The position numbers and the translations under genes are program-made. From positions 1 through 41,590 of the forward strand of contig JAFTVH010000066.1 of NCBI GenBank assembly GCA_017465845.1: a stretch of 41,590 nt of DNA, written 5' to 3'. This document shows, piece by piece, positions 11,889 through 17,785 of this stretch. The notes below the pieces were generated by a model that saw nothing but the letters and a program-made list of their open reading frames with translations, was not told the origin of the DNA and did no database searches. The stretch is from Lachnospiraceae bacterium. GTDB taxonomy: Bacteria > Bacillota > Clostridia > Lachnospirales > Lachnospiraceae. Position 1 is the stretch's first letter; every line of letters starts with the position of its first letter.

Positions 11889-11961
11889 GCTGCTGTGGCT
11901 CAGTCGGTAGAGCGTCGCATTGGTAGTGCGGAGGTCACGGGTCCGATTCCCGTCAGCAGCT
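11889..11961 (+). tRNA. tRNA-Thr (anticodon GGT), copy 1
   Basis: A complete cloverleaf: acceptor GCTGCTG/CAGCAGC, D arm GCTC-AGTCGGTA-GAGC, anticodon stem TCGCA/TGCGG with loop TTGGTAG (anticodon GGT, reading ACC/ACU) and T arm ACGGG/CCCGT with TCCGATT. The discriminator is T and CCA is not encoded. Confidence 0.96.
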
Positions 11962-12017: not shown

Positions 12018-12090
12018 GCTGCTGTGGCTCAGTCGGTAGAGCGTCGCATTGGTAGTGCGGAGGTCACGGGTCCGATTCCCGTCAGCAGCT
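12018..12090 (+). tRNA. tRNA-Thr (anticodon GGT), copy 2
   Basis: Identical over 73 nt to the copy 129 bp upstream, with the same promoter and a shared terminator. CCA is again not encoded. The 56-nt spacer differs from both flanks, so only the tRNA was duplicated or has been homogenised. Confidence 0.96.
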
Positions 12091-12595: not shown

Positions 12596-15262
12596 TTATT
12601 CTTCGTATTCATCTTCCAGATAGAACCCTCTGGTATGAAGCTCCCATTGCTGTGCTGAGAGGACGGATTCATAGTCAGGATTAGCATAAAAGCTGGCATC
12701 ATGTTGACAATGCGTAGTAGTCTGAGGCTGCACCACAGTTCCGTCTGCAAGGATGGTTGTGGAACCGTTCAGCAAGGACTCATCCTCGATGTGAGGAAGG
12801 TCGCAGTAACCGGAAATAGGGAAAGGACATTCAGCAGTGGCCGGAAGCCCGTCATATGCACAGACGATACCGGAATAGTGCATATCGCAGCTCTCAGTAG
12901 GTACGGTACCGTCAGCAAAGGATTCTTCAGTTACGTATGCATCGCAGACGCCTGGTATAGGCAGTTTACCGGATACGGAACATACAGTGGCGGTAATAAT
13001 CCCTTCGGGTTTGGTGAACTGTTCATTGGGCAGATGTTCATGAATCCTGTTCATAACCGCCCGCCAAAGTTTTTTGGCCAGGGAGCTTTCTGTTTTATCG
13101 TAAGCATCGAGTATATAGTTATTATCATATCCCACCCAGGTGGCACAGGTATAATAAGGAGTAAATCCTGCAAACCACACATCTCGCTTTTGAGAAGTCG
13201 TACCTGTCTTACCTGCGATTGCCATATTGCCAAAATTAACAGCACTTCCTGTACCGTTGGCACCCGTTACTACATCTACCATGGCATCTGTCAGCAGATA
13301 AGCGGTGGTAGGTTTGATTACCTGGCGTGAATTAGGTGAGGTATTGTCAAGCAATACATTACCGTTTGCATCCAATACCTTTGTATACAGCTTTGGCTCT
13401 ATATAGGCACCCTCATTGGCAATGGAGGCATAAGCGGAACATAGTTCCAGATTTGATACACCATTTGTAATGCCGCCCAGAGCAGTAGCCTGAATGATAT
13501 CGGTTTTCCATTCACCATTGATGCGTTGACCTTCCACAAGGCTGGTGATACCGAAATTCAACAGATAATCATAACCAAGCTGAGGCGTGATCTGTGTCAG
13601 CGTCTTAACTGCAATGATATTCTTGGAGCGCATAATTGCTTCGCGGATGGGAATAGTCCGGTAGTCATACTTATTATTGACGTTGTTTACCGGTTTACCT
13701 GAGTCGTAATTAAATGGCTCATCATTGAATACGGTAGCAAGTGTCATGCCGGCACTGTCTAATGCCGGAGCATAAGTGGATAAAATCTTGAATGTGGATC
13801 CGGGCTGTCTTGTGGTATCTGTAGCACGGTTCAGCGTTAAACGTCCTTCCTTGGCTCCACGTCCGCCCATCATAGCCACTACATAACCGGTATCCTGATC
13901 AATGACGGTTATAGACGCCTGAGGCTGTGCGGTATAGGTAACGTTTCTGTCAATGTCTTCTTCCGGGATATTGCCTACAACAGCAGCTTCATAAGCGGCA
14001 ATTGCTGCATCCCCTTCTTCCTGGGAAGTAAACAGGAGATTAAAGTCGGAATCCCCATTCTGCTTGTGCCAGGTTGTCAGATTCTCTTTGCTATAGTTGG
14101 TTTTGGTGCCGTCAGCTGCGGTAGCCGTCATGGCATAATCCAGCTGCCAGATGGTATTAGCTGGGAAGTTCGCTTCATTGGCAAATTCTTCGTTTACTAT
14201 ATTCTGAATGGTGCTGTCCAGAGTGGAATACACTTTCAGACCACCGGAAAGGAGAAGATTGGATGCCACACTCTCAGAATAGCCCAGTTTCTCCACAAGA
14301 TCTTCCAGAACCTGTTTTTGAAGAGCATCTGTAAAATAAGTACCGGTATAACTGTTGCTGGCCTGATAGGCCTCATTGGCAAGCTGAATCCTCTCATAAA
14401 CAGAAGCGGTATCAGCCATAGCTTCATCGTGTTCCGCCTGTGTGATAAATCCAAGATCCAACATGTTAGTAAGGCAGGTCTCTCGCCTTTTTGCATTTTT
14501 TTCCGGATATCGGATCGGATTATAACCGGAAGGATTCTGGGTGATGCAGGCGATAACGGCACATTCCGAAAGAGTAAGTTCACTGCAGGTCTTGCCGAAA
14601 TATCTCTGAGAAGCGGCTTCTACACCCAAGGTGTTCTGACCGCAGTTGATAGTATTCATGTAAGCTAAAAGCACATGGTCTTTATCTGTATTCTTGGTTA
14701 CTTCAATAGCCAGATACTGTTCCTGAAATTTACGCTTGATTTTCTTAATATAGTTGTCACCTTCAGAAGTCCAGTCGGTAAAAATAGCATTTTTCAAGAG
14801 CTGCTGCGTAATGGTACTCGCACCTTGTGTCTCCTGGAAACCACTCTTGATAAACTGGTAACCTGCCCGGATAAGACCTTTGAAATCAATGCCGTTATGC
14901 TCATAGAAACGTTCGTCCTCGATTGCCACAAAAGCTTTGCCCAGATAATCAGGTACCTGTTCCATGGTTACAATGGTACGGTTGGCATTGCTGCCTACGA
15001 AACGGTCGATTTCCTCTCCGGCGTTATCAAATACGACGGAAGCCTGTCCGGTAGGAACGATGGCAGTAATCTCTATCCTTGGCGTAGAAGCGATGATGCC
15101 TTTGAACATGCCGATGCCAGTTGCGGCACCAACGATTCCTAATGCGATAAATGCTATTAAAAATACCTTCACAAAGGTAAGCGCCAGCTTTCTACCCCAC
15201 TTTGAAGATTTGGAATTCAGAGCCTTCTGCCTTTCGCGGACACCTTTTTTTCCATAATTCAT
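12596..15262 (-). CDS. Class A penicillin-binding protein (PBP1a type)
   Basis: This is a bifunctional peptidoglycan synthase, anchored by one N-terminal helix (about residues 27-52) with a basic cytoplasmic tail. The GT51 transglycosylase carries EDERFYEH (catalytic Glu115) and GASTITQQLLKN. The transpeptidase has SxxK in RQPGSTFK (about residue 488), SxN in MRSKNIIAV (about 544) and KTGTTSQKRDVWFAG (about 685). At 888 aa it is normal length. The C-terminus has a Cys-containing low-complexity extension (CDMHYSGIVCAYDG, ending acidic EDEYEE) instead of PASTA domains. It is monocistronic; AAAGGTGA precedes the ATG by 7 nt. mrcA/ponA naming is not certain. Confidence 0.93.
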   Translation of the reverse strand: MNYGKKGVRERQKALNSKSSKWGRKLALTFVKVFLIAFIALGIVGAATGIGMFKGIIASTPRIEITAIVPTGQASVVFDNAGEEIDRFVGSNANRTIVTMEQVPDYLGKAFVAIEDERFYEHNGIDFKGLIRAGYQFIKSGFQETQGASTITQQLLKNAIFTDWTSEGDNYIKKIKRKFQEQYLAIEVTKNTDKDHVLLAYMNTINCGQNTLGVEAASQRYFGKTCSELTLSECAVIACITQNPSGYNPIRYPEKNAKRRETCLTNMLDLGFITQAEHDEAMADTASVYERIQLANEAYQASNSYTGTYFTDALQKQVLEDLVEKLGYSESVASNLLLSGGLKVYSTLDSTIQNIVNEEFANEANFPANTIWQLDYAMTATAADGTKTNYSKENLTTWHKQNGDSDFNLLFTSQEEGDAAIAAYEAAVVGNIPEEDIDRNVTYTAQPQASITVIDQDTGYVVAMMGGRGAKEGRLTLNRATDTTRQPGSTFKILSTYAPALDSAGMTLATVFNDEPFNYDSGKPVNNVNNKYDYRTIPIREAIMRSKNIIAVKTLTQITPQLGYDYLLNFGITSLVEGQRINGEWKTDIIQATALGGITNGVSNLELCSAYASIANEGAYIEPKLYTKVLDANGNVLLDNTSPNSRQVIKPTTAYLLTDAMVDVVTGANGTGSAVNFGNMAIAGKTGTTSQKRDVWFAGFTPYYTCATWVGYDNNYILDAYDKTESSLAKKLWRAVMNRIHEHLPNEQFTKPEGIITATVCSVSGKLPIPGVCDAYVTEESFADGTVPTESCDMHYSGIVCAYDGLPATAECPFPISGYCDLPHIEDESLLNGSTTILADGTVVQPQTTTHCQHDASFYANPDYESVLSAQQWELHTRGFYLEDEYEE

Positions 15263-15283
15263 ACAATAGTCACCTTTCTGTTG

Positions 15284-15310
15284 CGATTCATGTCCCCCTT
15301 ATATGAATCG
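15284..15310 (-). other. Hairpin in the PBP 5' leader
   Basis: CGATTCAT and ATGAATCG are perfect 8-bp arms around an 11-nt loop that reads, on the minus strand, ATAAGGGGGAC, a purine-rich Shine-Dalgarno-like loop. It lies about 22 nt upstream of the PBP start codon. A role in translation control is inference. Confidence 0.55.
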
Positions 15311-15343
15311 TAATCCTTTCTGCCTGTAGTTACAGACGCCTTT

Positions 15344-15349
15344 ATTATA
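15344..15349 (-). promoter_or_regulatory. Extended -10 promoter of the PBP gene
   Basis: The minus strand reads TGC-TATAAT. The -35 region (TTTATT) is poor. A palindrome CTGTAACTACAG (15323-15334, minus strand) lies just downstream near the start site and could be an operator. Confidence 0.5.
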
Positions 15350-15411
15350 GCAAAAAAAAGTATGTAAATAAAGGTTTTCTTTGACATATTAAGAATTGTT
15401 TCACAAATTCT

Positions 15412-15440
15412 TTGCTTTTATGCGGGAATTATTATATGAT
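15412..15440 (+). promoter_or_regulatory. Probable promoter of the YigZ-family gene
   Basis: TTGCTT (15412-15417), 17 bp, TATGAT (15435-15440), about 68 nt upstream of the start codon. Confidence 0.5.
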
Positions 15441-15507
15441 AGAGGAAAATAAGGTTACGGTTTTGCAAAGGCAGAACTGTGGATAAGGGCTTATAGGAGA
15501 AATGTAT

Positions 15508-16149
15508 ATGAAGGAACAGGAAGCATGTCGGATACTGCTGGAAGGCGGAGAAGGCGAGATTGTTGAAAAGAAATCACGATTCATTGCTACAGTGAGAAAG
15601 GTAGAATCTGAGAGCGAGGCAGTTGCTTTTATAGAAGAGATGAAGAAGAAATACTGGGATGCCAGACATAATTGCTCGGCATTTGTCATCGGCAGGAGGG
15701 CAGAACTTACAAGATGCAGCGATGACGGTGAACCCAGCGGTACTGCCGGCAGACCTATGCTGGAGGTGCTACTTGGAGAAGGCATCAGAAATGTGGCTGT
15801 GGTTGTGACCAGATATTTTGGCGGCACCCTGCTTGGAACCGGCGGTTTGGTGCGGGCTTACACACAGGCGGTAAAAGAGGGACTTGCGGCAAGCACCATT
15901 GGTATAGAAAGAGCAGGATATGAGATACTGATAGAGACAGATTATAATGGCGTGGGAAAGCTTCAGTATGTGATGGGACAGCGTGGCATCGAGCCTGTGA
16001 ACAGCGAATATGGCGCAGATGTAAAATTTACGCTGATCATTCCGGTGGAAAAAAGCACAGAACTTGAAAAAGTCATGGTGGAAGCTACGGCTGGCAAGGT
16101 GAAATGGACGAAAAGAAAAGAATTATATTTTATTGACAAAGAAGGTTAA
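15508..16149 (+). CDS. YigZ/IMPACT family protein
   Basis: An IMPACT-family protein of the YigZ/YvyE type, thought to act in translation or RNA metabolism; its biochemical role is poorly known. The 213-aa product has the diagnostic IMPACT signature (DDGEPSGTAGRPMLEVL, then VVTRYFGGTLLGTGGLVRAY) and a C-terminal DUF1949 domain (about 135-205). Two in-frame ATGs are close: the one at 15502 is only about 2 nt from AGGAGA, whereas that at 15508 has normal spacing and is preferred. Its 3' end holds the -35 box of the mgtE leader promoter. Confidence 0.92.
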   Translation: MKEQEACRILLEGGEGEIVEKKSRFIATVRKVESESEAVAFIEEMKKKYWDARHNCSAFVIGRRAELTRCSDDGEPSGTAGRPMLEVLLGEGIRNVAVVVTRYFGGTLLGTGGLVRAYTQAVKEGLAASTIGIERAGYEILIETDYNGVGKLQYVMGQRGIEPVNSEYGADVKFTLIIPVEKSTELEKVMVEATAGKVKWTKRKELYFIDKEG

Positions 16150-16161
16150 GATGGATAAAAT
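16133..16161 (+). promoter_or_regulatory. Promoter of the mgtE leader
   Basis: TTGACA (16133-16138, inside the yigZ 3' end), 17 bp, TAAAAT (16156-16161). The start near 16167 would put the first hairpin at the very 5' end of the RNA. Confidence 0.75.
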
Positions 16162-16222
16162 AAGAGTGGCGGTTGGAAGCAGCAACCGCTAATAACAGGC
16201 ATTTCGAAAGGTGGTGGTTTTA

Positions 16223-16315
16223 ATGAAGGGCAGTAAATCAAGTTCAGATAACCCTCTTCCCGCGGCGATACGCAGCATATTATTTATAATTGAAACCACC
16301 AATTGCCGCAGGTAG
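16223..16315 (+). CDS. Candidate 30-aa leader peptide upstream of mgtE
   Basis: An ATG at 16223 behind AAAGGTGGTGG opens a 30-codon frame, MKGSKSSSDNPLPAAIR and onward, ending ...ETTNCRR with TAG at 16313-16315. It contains SDNPLP, an acidic residue near two prolines. In enterobacterial mgtA/mgtL leaders, proline-rich or acidic-proline segments make translation magnesium-sensitive; comparison with those is inference. Its ribosome site and start codon are sequestered in the 13-bp helix and its stop sits in the next hairpin, so translation would change the folding that decides termination. It may also be a chance frame within an RNA aptamer. Confidence 0.4.
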   Translation: MKGSKSSSDNPLPAAIRSILFIIETTNCRR

Positions 16316-16329
16316 AGACTGCGGTTTTC

Positions 16330-16355
16330 GGCTGATGTCTCTCTCAGCTTTTTTT
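16330..16355 (+). terminator. Intrinsic terminator within the mgtE leader
   Basis: GGCTGA (16330-16335) and TCAGCT (16344-16349), an 8-nt loop, and a run of seven T's at 16349-16355, located about 80 nt before the mgtE start. Confidence 0.65.
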
Positions 16356-16448
16356 CTGTTGGGCATAATAGCTTTTACAGGCTATCTGTACGCCCTGAAA
16401 AGAGGCAGACGAAGCCGTAAGAAAGGAGAAATGCCATGGAACAGCTGA
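16335..16448 (+). CDS. Possible 37-aa membrane peptide overlapping the mgtE start
   Basis: The frame from ATG 16335 reads MSLSAFFLLGIIAFTGYLY, a plausible membrane helix, followed by a strongly basic segment ALKRGRRSRKKGE, and stops 13 nt inside mgtE. That architecture is like small membrane peptides such as MgtS/MgtR that associate with magnesium transporters, but no good ribosome site precedes the ATG and its first codons overlap the leader terminator. Treat as a hypothesis. Confidence 0.25.
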   Translation: MSLSAFFLLGIIAFTGYLYALKRGRRSRKKGEMPWNS

Positions 16449-17785
16449 AAGAAATCACTGAAATCAAAGAACTTCTGGACACCAAGCAGTATACAAGCCT
16501 GCGTCAGTACCTGGCAGAGTTGAACGATGCAGATATCGCCGGACTGATGGATGAGCTTGAGGAAGGAGAACTGCTGAAGGTCTTCCGCATCCTGCCCAAG
16601 AATTTGGCAGCGGATGTATTTTCTTACCTGGATCTGGACAATCAGCACATGATCATAACCTCCCTGACAGACAGAGAGGCTGCTAACATTATCAATAACC
16701 TGATGGCTGATGATGCCGTAGATATGCTGGAGGAGATGCCGGCGAATGTAGTAAAAAAGCTTTTAGCCAATGCCAGCCCGGAAGTGCGCAGGGATATCAA
16801 CCATTTGCTGCGCTATCCGGAGGATTCGGCCGGAAGCATCATGACTGTGGAGTACGTAGATTTAAAGGAAGCGCTCACAGTAGACCAGGCTATCGAGCGG
16901 ATTCGTAAGGTGGGTGTGGATAGTGAGACTATCAATATCTGTTATGTGCTGGATGCTCAGAGAAAGCTTATTGGAACGGTAGCGCTCAGATATCTGCTCT
17001 TAAGTCAGGGAGATGAGATCATTGGGGATATCATGCATGAAAATGTCATCTCTATCAATACTTTGATGGATCAGGAGGAAGTTGCAAGACAGTTCAAGAA
17101 ATATGACTTTACCTCCATGCCTGTTGTGGATAATGAGAACCGCCTTGTGGGAATCATTACTGTCGATGATATCGTGGATATCATGGAAGAAGAGACCACA
17201 GAGGATATGGAGAAGATGGCGGCTATCGTACCCAGTGATAAGCCATATATGAAGACCAGTGTGTGGGAGACTTTTAAAAAGAGAATTCCCTGGCTGCTGC
17301 TTCTGATGATATCAGCTACTTTTACCGGACACATCATTACTACATTCGAGGATGCACTGAGTGTCTATGTGGCGCTGACGGCCTTTATCCCCATGCTGAT
17401 GGATACCGGCGGAAATGCGGGAGGGCAGGCCTCTGTAACTGTCATCCGCGGTCTGTCACTTGGAGAAATTGAATATCGTGATGTGCCTGGGATCGTCTGG
17501 AAGGAAATACGGGTTGCGGTCTTATGCGGAATTGTTCTGGCAGCGGCCAACTTTGTGAAGTTGATGCTTTTGGACCGTGTGGGATTATATGTAGCCCTTG
17601 TAGTGTGCATTACTTTGGCAATTGCTGTGCTGATGGCTATGTTTGTAGGATGCCTGTTGCCCATAGCAGCTAAAAGATTAGGCTTTGACCCGGCAGTGAT
17701 GGCAAGTCCGTTTATAACGACGATTGTAGATGCGCTGTCTTTGTTGGTGTATTTCCAGGTGGCTACCATGATACTTGGATTATAG
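16436..17785 (+). CDS. mgtE: Magnesium channel/transporter MgtE
   Basis: MgtE is a homodimeric magnesium channel gated by cytosolic magnesium. The 449-aa protein has the three parts in order: a helical MgtE-N domain (about 20-125), a CBS pair (about 130-255; e.g. SMPVVDNENRLVGIITVDDIVDIM) and a five-helix membrane domain (about 280-449). Selectivity-region motifs are FIPMLMDTGGNAGGQ and FDPAVMASPFITTIVDALSLLVYF. GAAAGGAG precedes the ATG. The gene is monocistronic with a dedicated promoter, a structured leader and a strong terminator, consistent with control by magnesium status (inferred from gene and context). Confidence 0.96.
   Translation: MEQLKEITEIKELLDTKQYTSLRQYLAELNDADIAGLMDELEEGELLKVFRILPKNLAADVFSYLDLDNQHMIITSLTDREAANIINNLMADDAVDMLEEMPANVVKKLLANASPEVRRDINHLLRYPEDSAGSIMTVEYVDLKEALTVDQAIERIRKVGVDSETINICYVLDAQRKLIGTVALRYLLLSQGDEIIGDIMHENVISINTLMDQEEVARQFKKYDFTSMPVVDNENRLVGIITVDDIVDIMEEETTEDMEKMAAIVPSDKPYMKTSVWETFKKRIPWLLLLMISATFTGHIITTFEDALSVYVALTAFIPMLMDTGGNAGGQASVTVIRGLSLGEIEYRDVPGIVWKEIRVAVLCGIVLAAANFVKLMLLDRVGLYVALVVCITLAIAVLMAMFVGCLLPIAAKRLGFDPAVMASPFITTIVDALSLLVYFQVATMILGL

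Follow-up and report, generated by a model that had tools for sequence, protein, structure and literature searches.

A structured mgtE leader of Lachnospiraceae with an acidic-proline upstream open reading frame: a probable ribosome-based magnesium sensor

The magnesium transporter gene mgtE of a Lachnospiraceae bacterium (GenBank assembly GCA_017465845.1, contig JAFTVH010000066.1) is preceded by a structured leader that contains a short upstream open reading frame (uORF), in which an early aspartate is followed by prolines. The leader lies in a stretch of 41,590 nucleotides, analysed at its full length and called the window here. It is probable that this is a cis-acting leader which controls mgtE through translation of the uORF, as a ribosome-based Mg2+ sensor that would work like MgtL in a different architecture. 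Comparison with relatives shows the first part of the uORF, about 16 codons, to be under selection as a peptide and its tail not, as judged from codon-position changes that differ between the two. It also shows two predicted helices: P1, which would mask the ribosome site or start of mgtE, and P2, which would mask the ribosome site and start of the uORF. We infer both that Mg2+ is the signal and the sign of the control. The parts of the leader and its flanking genes are as follows.

15502-16149, + strand: yigZ/IMPACT-family gene, 5' of the leader (TIGR00257).
16133-16161, + strand: promoter TTGACA-N17-TAAAAT, 11 of 12 consensus positions.
16167-16191, + strand: 5' hairpin of 9 bp (arms 16167-16175/16183-16191), part of the minimum free energy (MFE) structure.
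16198-16205, + strand: P1 5' arm GGCATTTC, pairing with 16428-16435 in the MFE structure.
16207-16217, + strand: Shine-Dalgarno (SD) region of the uORF, AAAGGTGGTGG, read from the sequence and an element of the search pattern for relatives.
16212-16224, + strand: P2 5' arm (SD and start of the uORF), pair probabilities 0.83-1.00.
16223-16315, + strand: uORF of 30 codons, MKGSKSSSDNPLPAAIRSILFIIETTNCRR, with ATG start and a coding-type codon pattern in relatives.
16247-16261, + strand: codons Asp9-Asn-Pro-Leu-Pro, the common acidic/proline segment of the uORF sequence, kept in relatives.
16289-16301, + strand: P2 3' arm, in the MFE structure, its complementarity retained in relatives.
16302-16420, + strand: stretch in which, by comparison with congeners, about 105 nt are inserted locally, after P2 and before the mgtE ribosome site.
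16305-16325, + strand: hairpin whose loop holds the uORF stop codon (16305-16311/16319-16325), -12.0 kcal/mol, within the insert.
16330-16355, + strand: terminator-like hairpin 16330-16349 plus T run, -7.0 kcal/mol, within the insert.
16424-16428, + strand: mgtE SD, AGGAG, read from the sequence.
16428-16435, + strand: P1 3' arm GAAATGCC, the mgtE spacer/start region; the MFE helix extends into the mgtE start codon.
16436-17785, + strand: mgtE magnesium transporter (TIGR00400 equivalog, 484 bits; Pfam MgtE, MgtE_N, CBS).

The list of open reading frames starts the uORF at a GTG further 5', at 16211; from its ATG it spans 16223-16315. A preliminary description of this DNA had named the dedicated promoter, the 5' hairpin, the 13-bp helix that encloses the uORF and hides its ribosome site (P2), the 30-codon frame itself and the hairpin around its stop codon, and all of these are present. 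The observation made there is thus confirmed, and its interpretation is partly supported; magnesium sensing is proposed by analogy with known leaders. P1 was absent from that description and is the best supported pairing of the leader, with clear covariation when its registers are left free. The segment 16167-16435 is more stable than 200 of 200 dinucleotide shuffles (z -3.97); in its fold P2 covers part of the uORF SD and two bases of the ATG, and P1 covers the last base of the mgtE SD, the spacer and the start. The window uORF has the early acidic and proline residues of the MgtL type and, like it, precedes a Mg2+ transporter gene.

Is this a known regulatory RNA? The leader (16196-16438) has no Rfam match above a gathering score, and at E up to 10 gives one chance-like match to a frameshift element (12.6 bits against a cut-off of 53). 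The M-box (RF00380) has no match in the window, none in 16000-16500 at E up to 10, and none under stricter filters in the window's own genome, in agreement with the earlier remark that no M-box core was visible. An M-box or other riboswitch identity is rejected on these Rfam results. The preliminary description had offered a new riboswitch or a translation-coupled sensor; the latter fits better because what the relatives share is a peptide together with two helices masking ribosome sites.

Relatives with the leader before mgtE were found, as the preliminary description had proposed to check. A DNA search of 200 family genomes matched six, the window included; L002, L004, L006 and L007 stand before mgtE, and L003 and L005 do not and were set aside. 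An exact pattern, AAAGGTGGTGGTTTTN{0,2}ATG, matched 17 of 397 family genomes (window included) and at least 120 stretches in named species genomes (titles shown for 80), and gave no match in a plasmid search. As this pattern names neither gene nor peptide, the scan ties mgtE and the acidic/proline peptide together. Among the matches listed there are 137 pattern loci. In 84 of them, counting the window and 11 duplicates, tblastn places mgtE next, and every one of these 84 uORFs carries [DE].{1,4}P between residues 4 and 26. The motif is missing from 38 of the remaining 53; the other 15 meet this loose pattern, including L055, L076 and L086, which look like true leaders and whose available sequence ends within 106-368 nt. 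The mgtE-linked loci are, by the titles shown, mostly Lachnospiraceae, Butyrivibrio or Parablautia. Variant leaders (MRTDDSDSCRRCEAAYGGDVPPRL) occur in L057, L076 and L109, where the next open reading frame begins with a long acidic stretch and is mgtE by tblastn in L057 and L109. The same SD pattern also stands before a conserved 25-residue hydrophobic peptide of the MTKREISQFIIILLLFLVVIVLLLK type, not mgtE, in L036, L064, L095, L100 and L125; four of these five contigs are titled uncultured Bacilli.

The detailed set consists of 69 distinct leaders, left when 50 loci that were not mgtE by a quick test (the true leader L051 among them), 11 duplicates and 7 loci without a start found (among them the true leaders L057, L109 and the window, L009) were dropped from the 137. 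At 90% nonredundancy there are 56 leaders, with L020 and L052 left out. A further survey did not depend on the pattern. MgtE was found in 89 of 120 family genomes, and upstream DNA was read for 45 of the 46 best-scoring genes (G055, which starts at a contig end, was skipped). An Asp/Glu-Pro uORF without an M-box precedes 15 of these 45 (G000, G064, G031, G080, G006, G116, G107, G003, G081, G011, G039, G010, G048, G019 and G087), and in three more it lies downstream of an M-box (G024, G007 and, weakly, G102). The peptides are diverse (NDDDLHPRS, SDVPERS, CDADAPYP, EADAHPEPE). In the window's genus 26 of 31 genomes, its own included, match a 601-base query, and 13 of 19 congener loci other than the window have the leader. 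At order level, 246 genomes were searched with a covariance model, R1, and 12 matched: 11 in the family, counting the window, of which two were read closely, and one outside it. The match outside the family (G553, L224) was judged false, as it sits at the beginning of a gene that by eye resembles CsoR, with no mgtE seen. Of 40 more distant family mgtE upstream regions, none of the 39 with a start found has an Asp-Pro uORF, though many of the chosen starts look wrong; under another start rule, 38 usable regions gave five structured uORFs whose second codon is Asp, of which one is probably the N-terminal part of the mgtE product.

An acidic residue followed by proline within residues 4-26 is present in all 69 distinct leaders, against a mean of 29.3 and a maximum of 43 when residues 2-30 are shuffled within each peptide. 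The SDNPLP segment of the window, to which attention had been drawn before, belongs to this common peptide. The acidic residue is Asp in 65 leaders and Glu in the other 4. It stands at codon 11 in 36, codon 9 in 14, codon 10 in 7, codon 12 in 4 and elsewhere in 8. Since the alignment rows are anchored on Asp/Glu (four Butyrivibrio-type rows on an earlier Asp), fixed first and second positions of that codon are no evidence and only its free third base is informative; it varies (T47/C18/A3/G1). From codon 2 to five codons beyond the acidic codon, 20 non-overlapping close pairs differ by 24, 26 and 63 changes at codon positions 1, 2 and 3 over 879 sites, with dN/dS about 0.39 by a crude count. 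Because of the anchoring the count was also made without the acidic codon, and gave 24, 26 and 60 changes over 819 sites. In the tail of the uORF up to the mgtE SD there are 10, 9 and 5 changes (337 sites, 14 pairs), with no coding pattern.

In relatives P1 joins the segment just upstream of the uORF SD to the mgtE SD, spacer or start, and P2 joins the uORF SD and start to the segment just before the mgtE SD. The registers of P1 read as differing between species, and so register-free duplex tests were used, with permutation, displaced-window and arm-swap controls; the permutations do not remove relatedness. The P1 arm pairs better with its own partner than with those of other species (-11.20 versus -7.39 kcal/mol; better in 53 of 56 leaders), and none of 20,000 permutations was as good. 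With 76 nonredundant leaders z is -15.1, compared with -0.7, 0.3 and -0.8 for windows displaced 17, 25 and 34 nt further upstream, and -5.5 for an overlapping window shifted by 8 nt. Swapping arms between the closest pairs by sequence (n=38) made the duplex worse in 21 cases and better in 3, with 14 tied. For P2 the preference is modest (-13.78 versus -12.40 kcal/mol; better in 39 of 56; 0 of 20,000 permutations), but its 5' arm is set by the search pattern, so that P2 can hardly covary. Covariation in the 13-bp helix, a check proposed in the preliminary description, was found to a modest extent in these tests and not by RNAalifold on fixed columns. The masked main SD of a translational attenuator is thus present in relatives, as P1, by the register-free tests and not on the fixed-column alignment.

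In the relatives the uORF also runs into the gene. None of the 56 nonredundant leaders closes this frame before the end of the mgtE start; the other two frames stay open in 0 and 2, and base shuffles give a mean of 8.4 (maximum 15). In 68 of 69 relatives the uORF stop lies within mgtE, in another frame and 16 to 125 nt past the ATG; in L020 (reverse strand, uORF start at 1517) it is in frame with mgtE and predicts a 482-residue fusion. An SD-led Asp/Glu-Pro uORF that reads past the gene start was seen before 0 of 225 control open reading frames, versus 68 of 69 leaders. Upstream of the uORF, TTGAC-N17..20-TANNNT occurs within 140 nt in 48 of the 69. No counterpart of the 5' hairpin was noticed by eye in congeners.

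The window uORF does not overlap mgtE because of the insert of about 105 nt after P2. Both its stop hairpin and its terminator-like hairpin lie within this insert, which is absent from the congeners compared, and P1 is retained across it. Leader-bearing congeners have little sequence between the P2 3' arm and the mgtE SD; L203 has a short insert, and its P1 is GGCATTT/AAATGCC; inserts are found also in L052 and L223. In the short form, which most pattern relatives have, inspection by eye showed no terminator-like hairpin between uORF and gene, and a conserved terminator was thus not found there. The intrinsic terminator of the preliminary description is present as a hairpin and T run, but it is a weak match, and terminator attenuation is not supported as the general design. 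A terminator scan gave two matches on both strands, with a shuffle mean of 0.5 (sd 0.8), and the match in the window is weak evidence. The AGAGAC/GTCTCT pairing, described earlier as a mutually exclusive alternative, is possible (-10.4 kcal/mol), but the stop hairpin and terminator together are more stable (-19.3 kcal/mol). A further architecture like that of the window is seen in L155 (G116) and L207, which have GDSRSTDSVPRST peptides and uORFs that end 41-52 nt short of the called mgtE start.

Does the arrangement extend beyond the family and beyond mgtE? A class-level scan covered these two gene families, mgtE and corA, and control open reading frames. For mgtE, 69 upstream regions were read from the MgtE loci of 118 class genomes (29 loci, two from the same family, plus 40 others), and SD-led Met-[Asp/Glu]-x(0-5)-Pro uORFs precede 16 of them (MDYPDPLP, MDSDPLP, MDSSPLP, MDSGPLP). 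For corA, the best 30 loci from 99 genomes yielded 29 usable ones, with uORFs of this kind before 7, all of the form start-Asp-x-Asp-Pro (MDIDPYP, MDTDPYP, start-DADP). The same type precedes 4 of 350 controls (Fisher P 1.7e-10 for mgtE and 2.0e-6 for corA, in tests that treat loci as independent although near-identical species, L363/L364 and L283/L290, are present). The controls are any open reading frames of at least 150 codons with an SD-led ATG from loci of mixed taxa, some probably not genes. Asp/Glu stands at codon 2 in 6 of 350 controls without mgtE and corA, and in 13 of 386 with corA genes included. Among uORFs with their SD or start inside a strong helix, codon 2 encodes Asp/Glu in 23 of 30 for mgtE of the class and 7 of 7 for corA, compared with 6 of 30 in controls. 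The M-box, found in 13 of 120 family genomes under stricter filters, can stand in tandem with an Asp-Pro uORF: in L283 (M-box 1125-1290) the uORF lies 106 nt before mgtE, and in L346 (M-box 866-1074) it lies 287 nt before corA. We lean, with modest confidence, towards the wider view that mgtE and corA, two unrelated Mg2+ importers, share across Clostridia a ribosome-based Mg2+ sensor made of a structured leader and a uORF with early Asp/Glu and then Pro. It would take the forms Met-Asp-x-Pro, Met-Asp-x-Asp-Pro and, in Lachnospiraceae, Ser-Asp-x-Pro-x-Pro, and would give Gram-positive bacteria an equivalent of MgtL, whether by convergence or of ancient origin, acting alone or in tandem with the M-box and with an overlapping-uORF output in Lachnospiraceae.

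How might such a leader work? With no ribosome on the uORF, P1 and P2 would form and mgtE would be off. Ribosomes loading on the uORF would push the P1 5' arm out of its pairing. With ample Mg2+ they would pass the Asp-Pro segment, cross the mgtE start in another frame and occlude it. In low Mg2+ the Asp-Pro segment would slow them or make them drop off, as has been published for MgtL, leaving the uORF start busy, P1 open and the mgtE start not overrun, so that mgtE would be expressed. In the window the insert ends the uORF before mgtE, and may add a terminator as an extra or replacement output stage. A variant with two stacked ribosomes is conceivable.

The sign could be the reverse. Ribosomes that translate the whole uORF could unwind P2 and P1 and so turn mgtE on, and drop-off or stalling at Asp-Pro would keep it off. 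A frame that crosses the P1 3' arm and the mgtE start without a stop in 56 of 56 leaders, with a tail that is not selected as peptide, would suit this. Termination-reinitiation, however, usually works over a shorter distance than 16 to 125 nt past a start codon, where the 68 out-of-frame uORFs end. As the overlap runs past the mgtE start with stops deeper than is usual for reinitiation, occlusion by full-length translation is the simpler reading. Enterobacterial uORF translation is also reported to be inverse to that of the transporter (PMC11552253), and we regard activation by melting as unlikely, yet as a serious competitor. A still less likely version keeps the uORF and helices and changes the signal, so that any ribosome slowing at Asp-x-Pro is sensed, from EF-P or ABC-F shortage or a ribosome-targeting drug. 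Ribosomes can be held up by segments that contain proline and by acidic ones, and EttA, an ABC-F protein, is reported to act on MgtL (PMC11282234); set against this, the clear instances among the pattern-scan matches listed precede mgtE only, the other gene found, among mgtE, corA and control frames, is corA of a second Mg2+ transporter family, and some copies are in tandem with the M-box. That the element acts at the RNA level only, its Pro codons (e.g. CCT CTT CCC) being kept for pairing with the mgtE SD and the peptide incidental, we hold to be very improbable: C-rich codons look anti-SD-like by eye in many aligned leaders, but codon position 3 takes 60 of the 110 changes outside the acidic codon, and the mgtE SD region is already paired in P1. 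We give even less credence to an unrecognised metabolite or metal riboswitch, which the strong structure before a metal-transporter gene would suit, but to which the missing Rfam match and the conserved unit of coding segment and masking helices are opposed.

For the window copy itself, a role mainly as a transcription attenuator is a possibility that we doubt without dismissing. Hairpin 16330-16349 would terminate, and pairing of the P1 5' arm, or AGAGAC/GTCTCT, would prevent termination. The hairpin and T run are in place, the P1 5' arm pairs with the terminator region in folds of transcripts ending at 16349-16380, and among relatives the P2 helix of G039 runs into a T run and G007 has a complementary stretch before a T run, seen by eye and not in the MFE structure. 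The stem is weak, however, and was seen in the window copy only, the short form of the relatives having no such hairpin. Several observations also weigh against the Mg2+ sensor that we prefer. The window uORF, unlike those of the relatives, stops 120 nt before mgtE. Six of the 19 congener loci are without the leader, so mgtE can do without it; in one, L196 of the same genus, AAAGGTG is fused directly to ATAAAAAAACATCAAAGGAG before mgtE, apparently a natural loss scar from which the uORF hairpin, otherwise placed between the SD and the P2 3' arm, has gone. RNAalifold predicts no structure on a MAFFT alignment of the 56 leaders. On the fixed-column alignment P1 is 44.6% paired and P2 90.8%, and a hand-set structure exceeds shuffles in only one of five measures, namely pairs changed on both sides, for which 4 of 500 shuffles scored as high. 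P1-like pairing is weaker at class level (own -7.15 versus -5.81; z -3.4; 16 of 20,000; n=24, two of them Lachnospiraceae). Finally, the EPDP of MgtL has two acidic residues and many of these peptides have one, so that strong ribosome destabilisation is not assured.

Among known systems, translational attenuators of the erm/cat type have a leader-peptide uORF and a masked SD of the main gene, as here; they differ in their drug signal and in a uORF that ends before the gene. Similar in working is mgtL-mgtA of E. coli and Salmonella, where ribosomes are reported to drop off at EPDP in low Mg2+, prevented by EttA (PMC11282234), and where, as for corL, uORF translation is reported as inverse to expression of mgtA or corA, with the uORF SD inside a stem (PMC11552253). 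A short uORF with early acidic and proline residues, a Mg2+ importer, an SD in a stem and control through uORF translation are common to both. The leaders described here belong to another phylum and to mgtE and corA genes, have their acidic residue at codon 9-12 in most window-type peptides, and have an mgtE start masked by P1 and an overlapping uORF. The MDYPDPLP-type peptides resemble MgtL, a likeness judged from MgtL as generally known and the EPDP motif given in PMC11282234. The window-type leader would thus work like MgtL, by analogy, and no kinship with mgtL is claimed. The corL-corA pair of Enterobacteria likewise has a uORF before corA, translated inversely to it (PMC11552253), but differs in sequence and structure, and the published 'corA motif' is described as gamma-proteobacterial (PMC6429828). 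In mgtQ, between mgtC and mgtB of Salmonella, acidic codons of a uORF are reported to control translation of a Mg2+ transporter by freeing the masked mgtB ribosome-binding site; it differs in being intergenic and of 8 codons, with a Pro codon reported as not required (PMC8092293).

The M-box (ykoK) is reported before the Mg2+ transporter genes mgtE, corA and mgtA (PMC4072509); the window leader does not match it, and the two stand in tandem in some relatives. An M-box-controlled uORF is reported in mycobacteria with another peptide (PMC12810186). The 'mgtE motif' SRC-65-1 is a candidate mgtE leader with SD and AUG in a stem, set apart by its description as a riboswitch candidate exclusively from Thioalkalivibrio (PMC11109978). 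A term search of PMC8632094 gave no mention of mgtE. Among the top results listed from the open-licence PMC literature, by title and abstract start, no paper on a uORF of Clostridia mgtE or corA was found, and within the same literature an overlapping-uORF output was found described for no Mg2+ leader.

The locus around the leader shows some further features. The window from 12596 to 16149 and L002, L004, L006 and L007 have a common gene order, with a divergent gene (penicillin-binding-protein-like by eye), the yigZ-family gene, the leader and mgtE. Another frame, ORF2 (16290-16448, 52 codons), has no Pfam or NCBIfam match and no SD by eye and is not supported; if real, it would take a reading frame across the mgtE start. 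The window also contains a T-box leader at 662-891 (115.7 bits), and two tRNA genes, 11889-11961 and 12018-12090, that score equally.

Destabilisation of the ribosome by a nascent peptide is known as a means of Mg2+ sensing from Enterobacteria. If Clostridia use it on other transporters with another RNA design, it would be a general strategy and not a curiosity. It could explain how mgtE is controlled in Lachnospiraceae that have no M-box. The natural set of peptides, with one or several Asp, at codon 2 or at codons 9-12, and with or without an M-box, makes the rules of Asp/Pro destabilisation directly testable.

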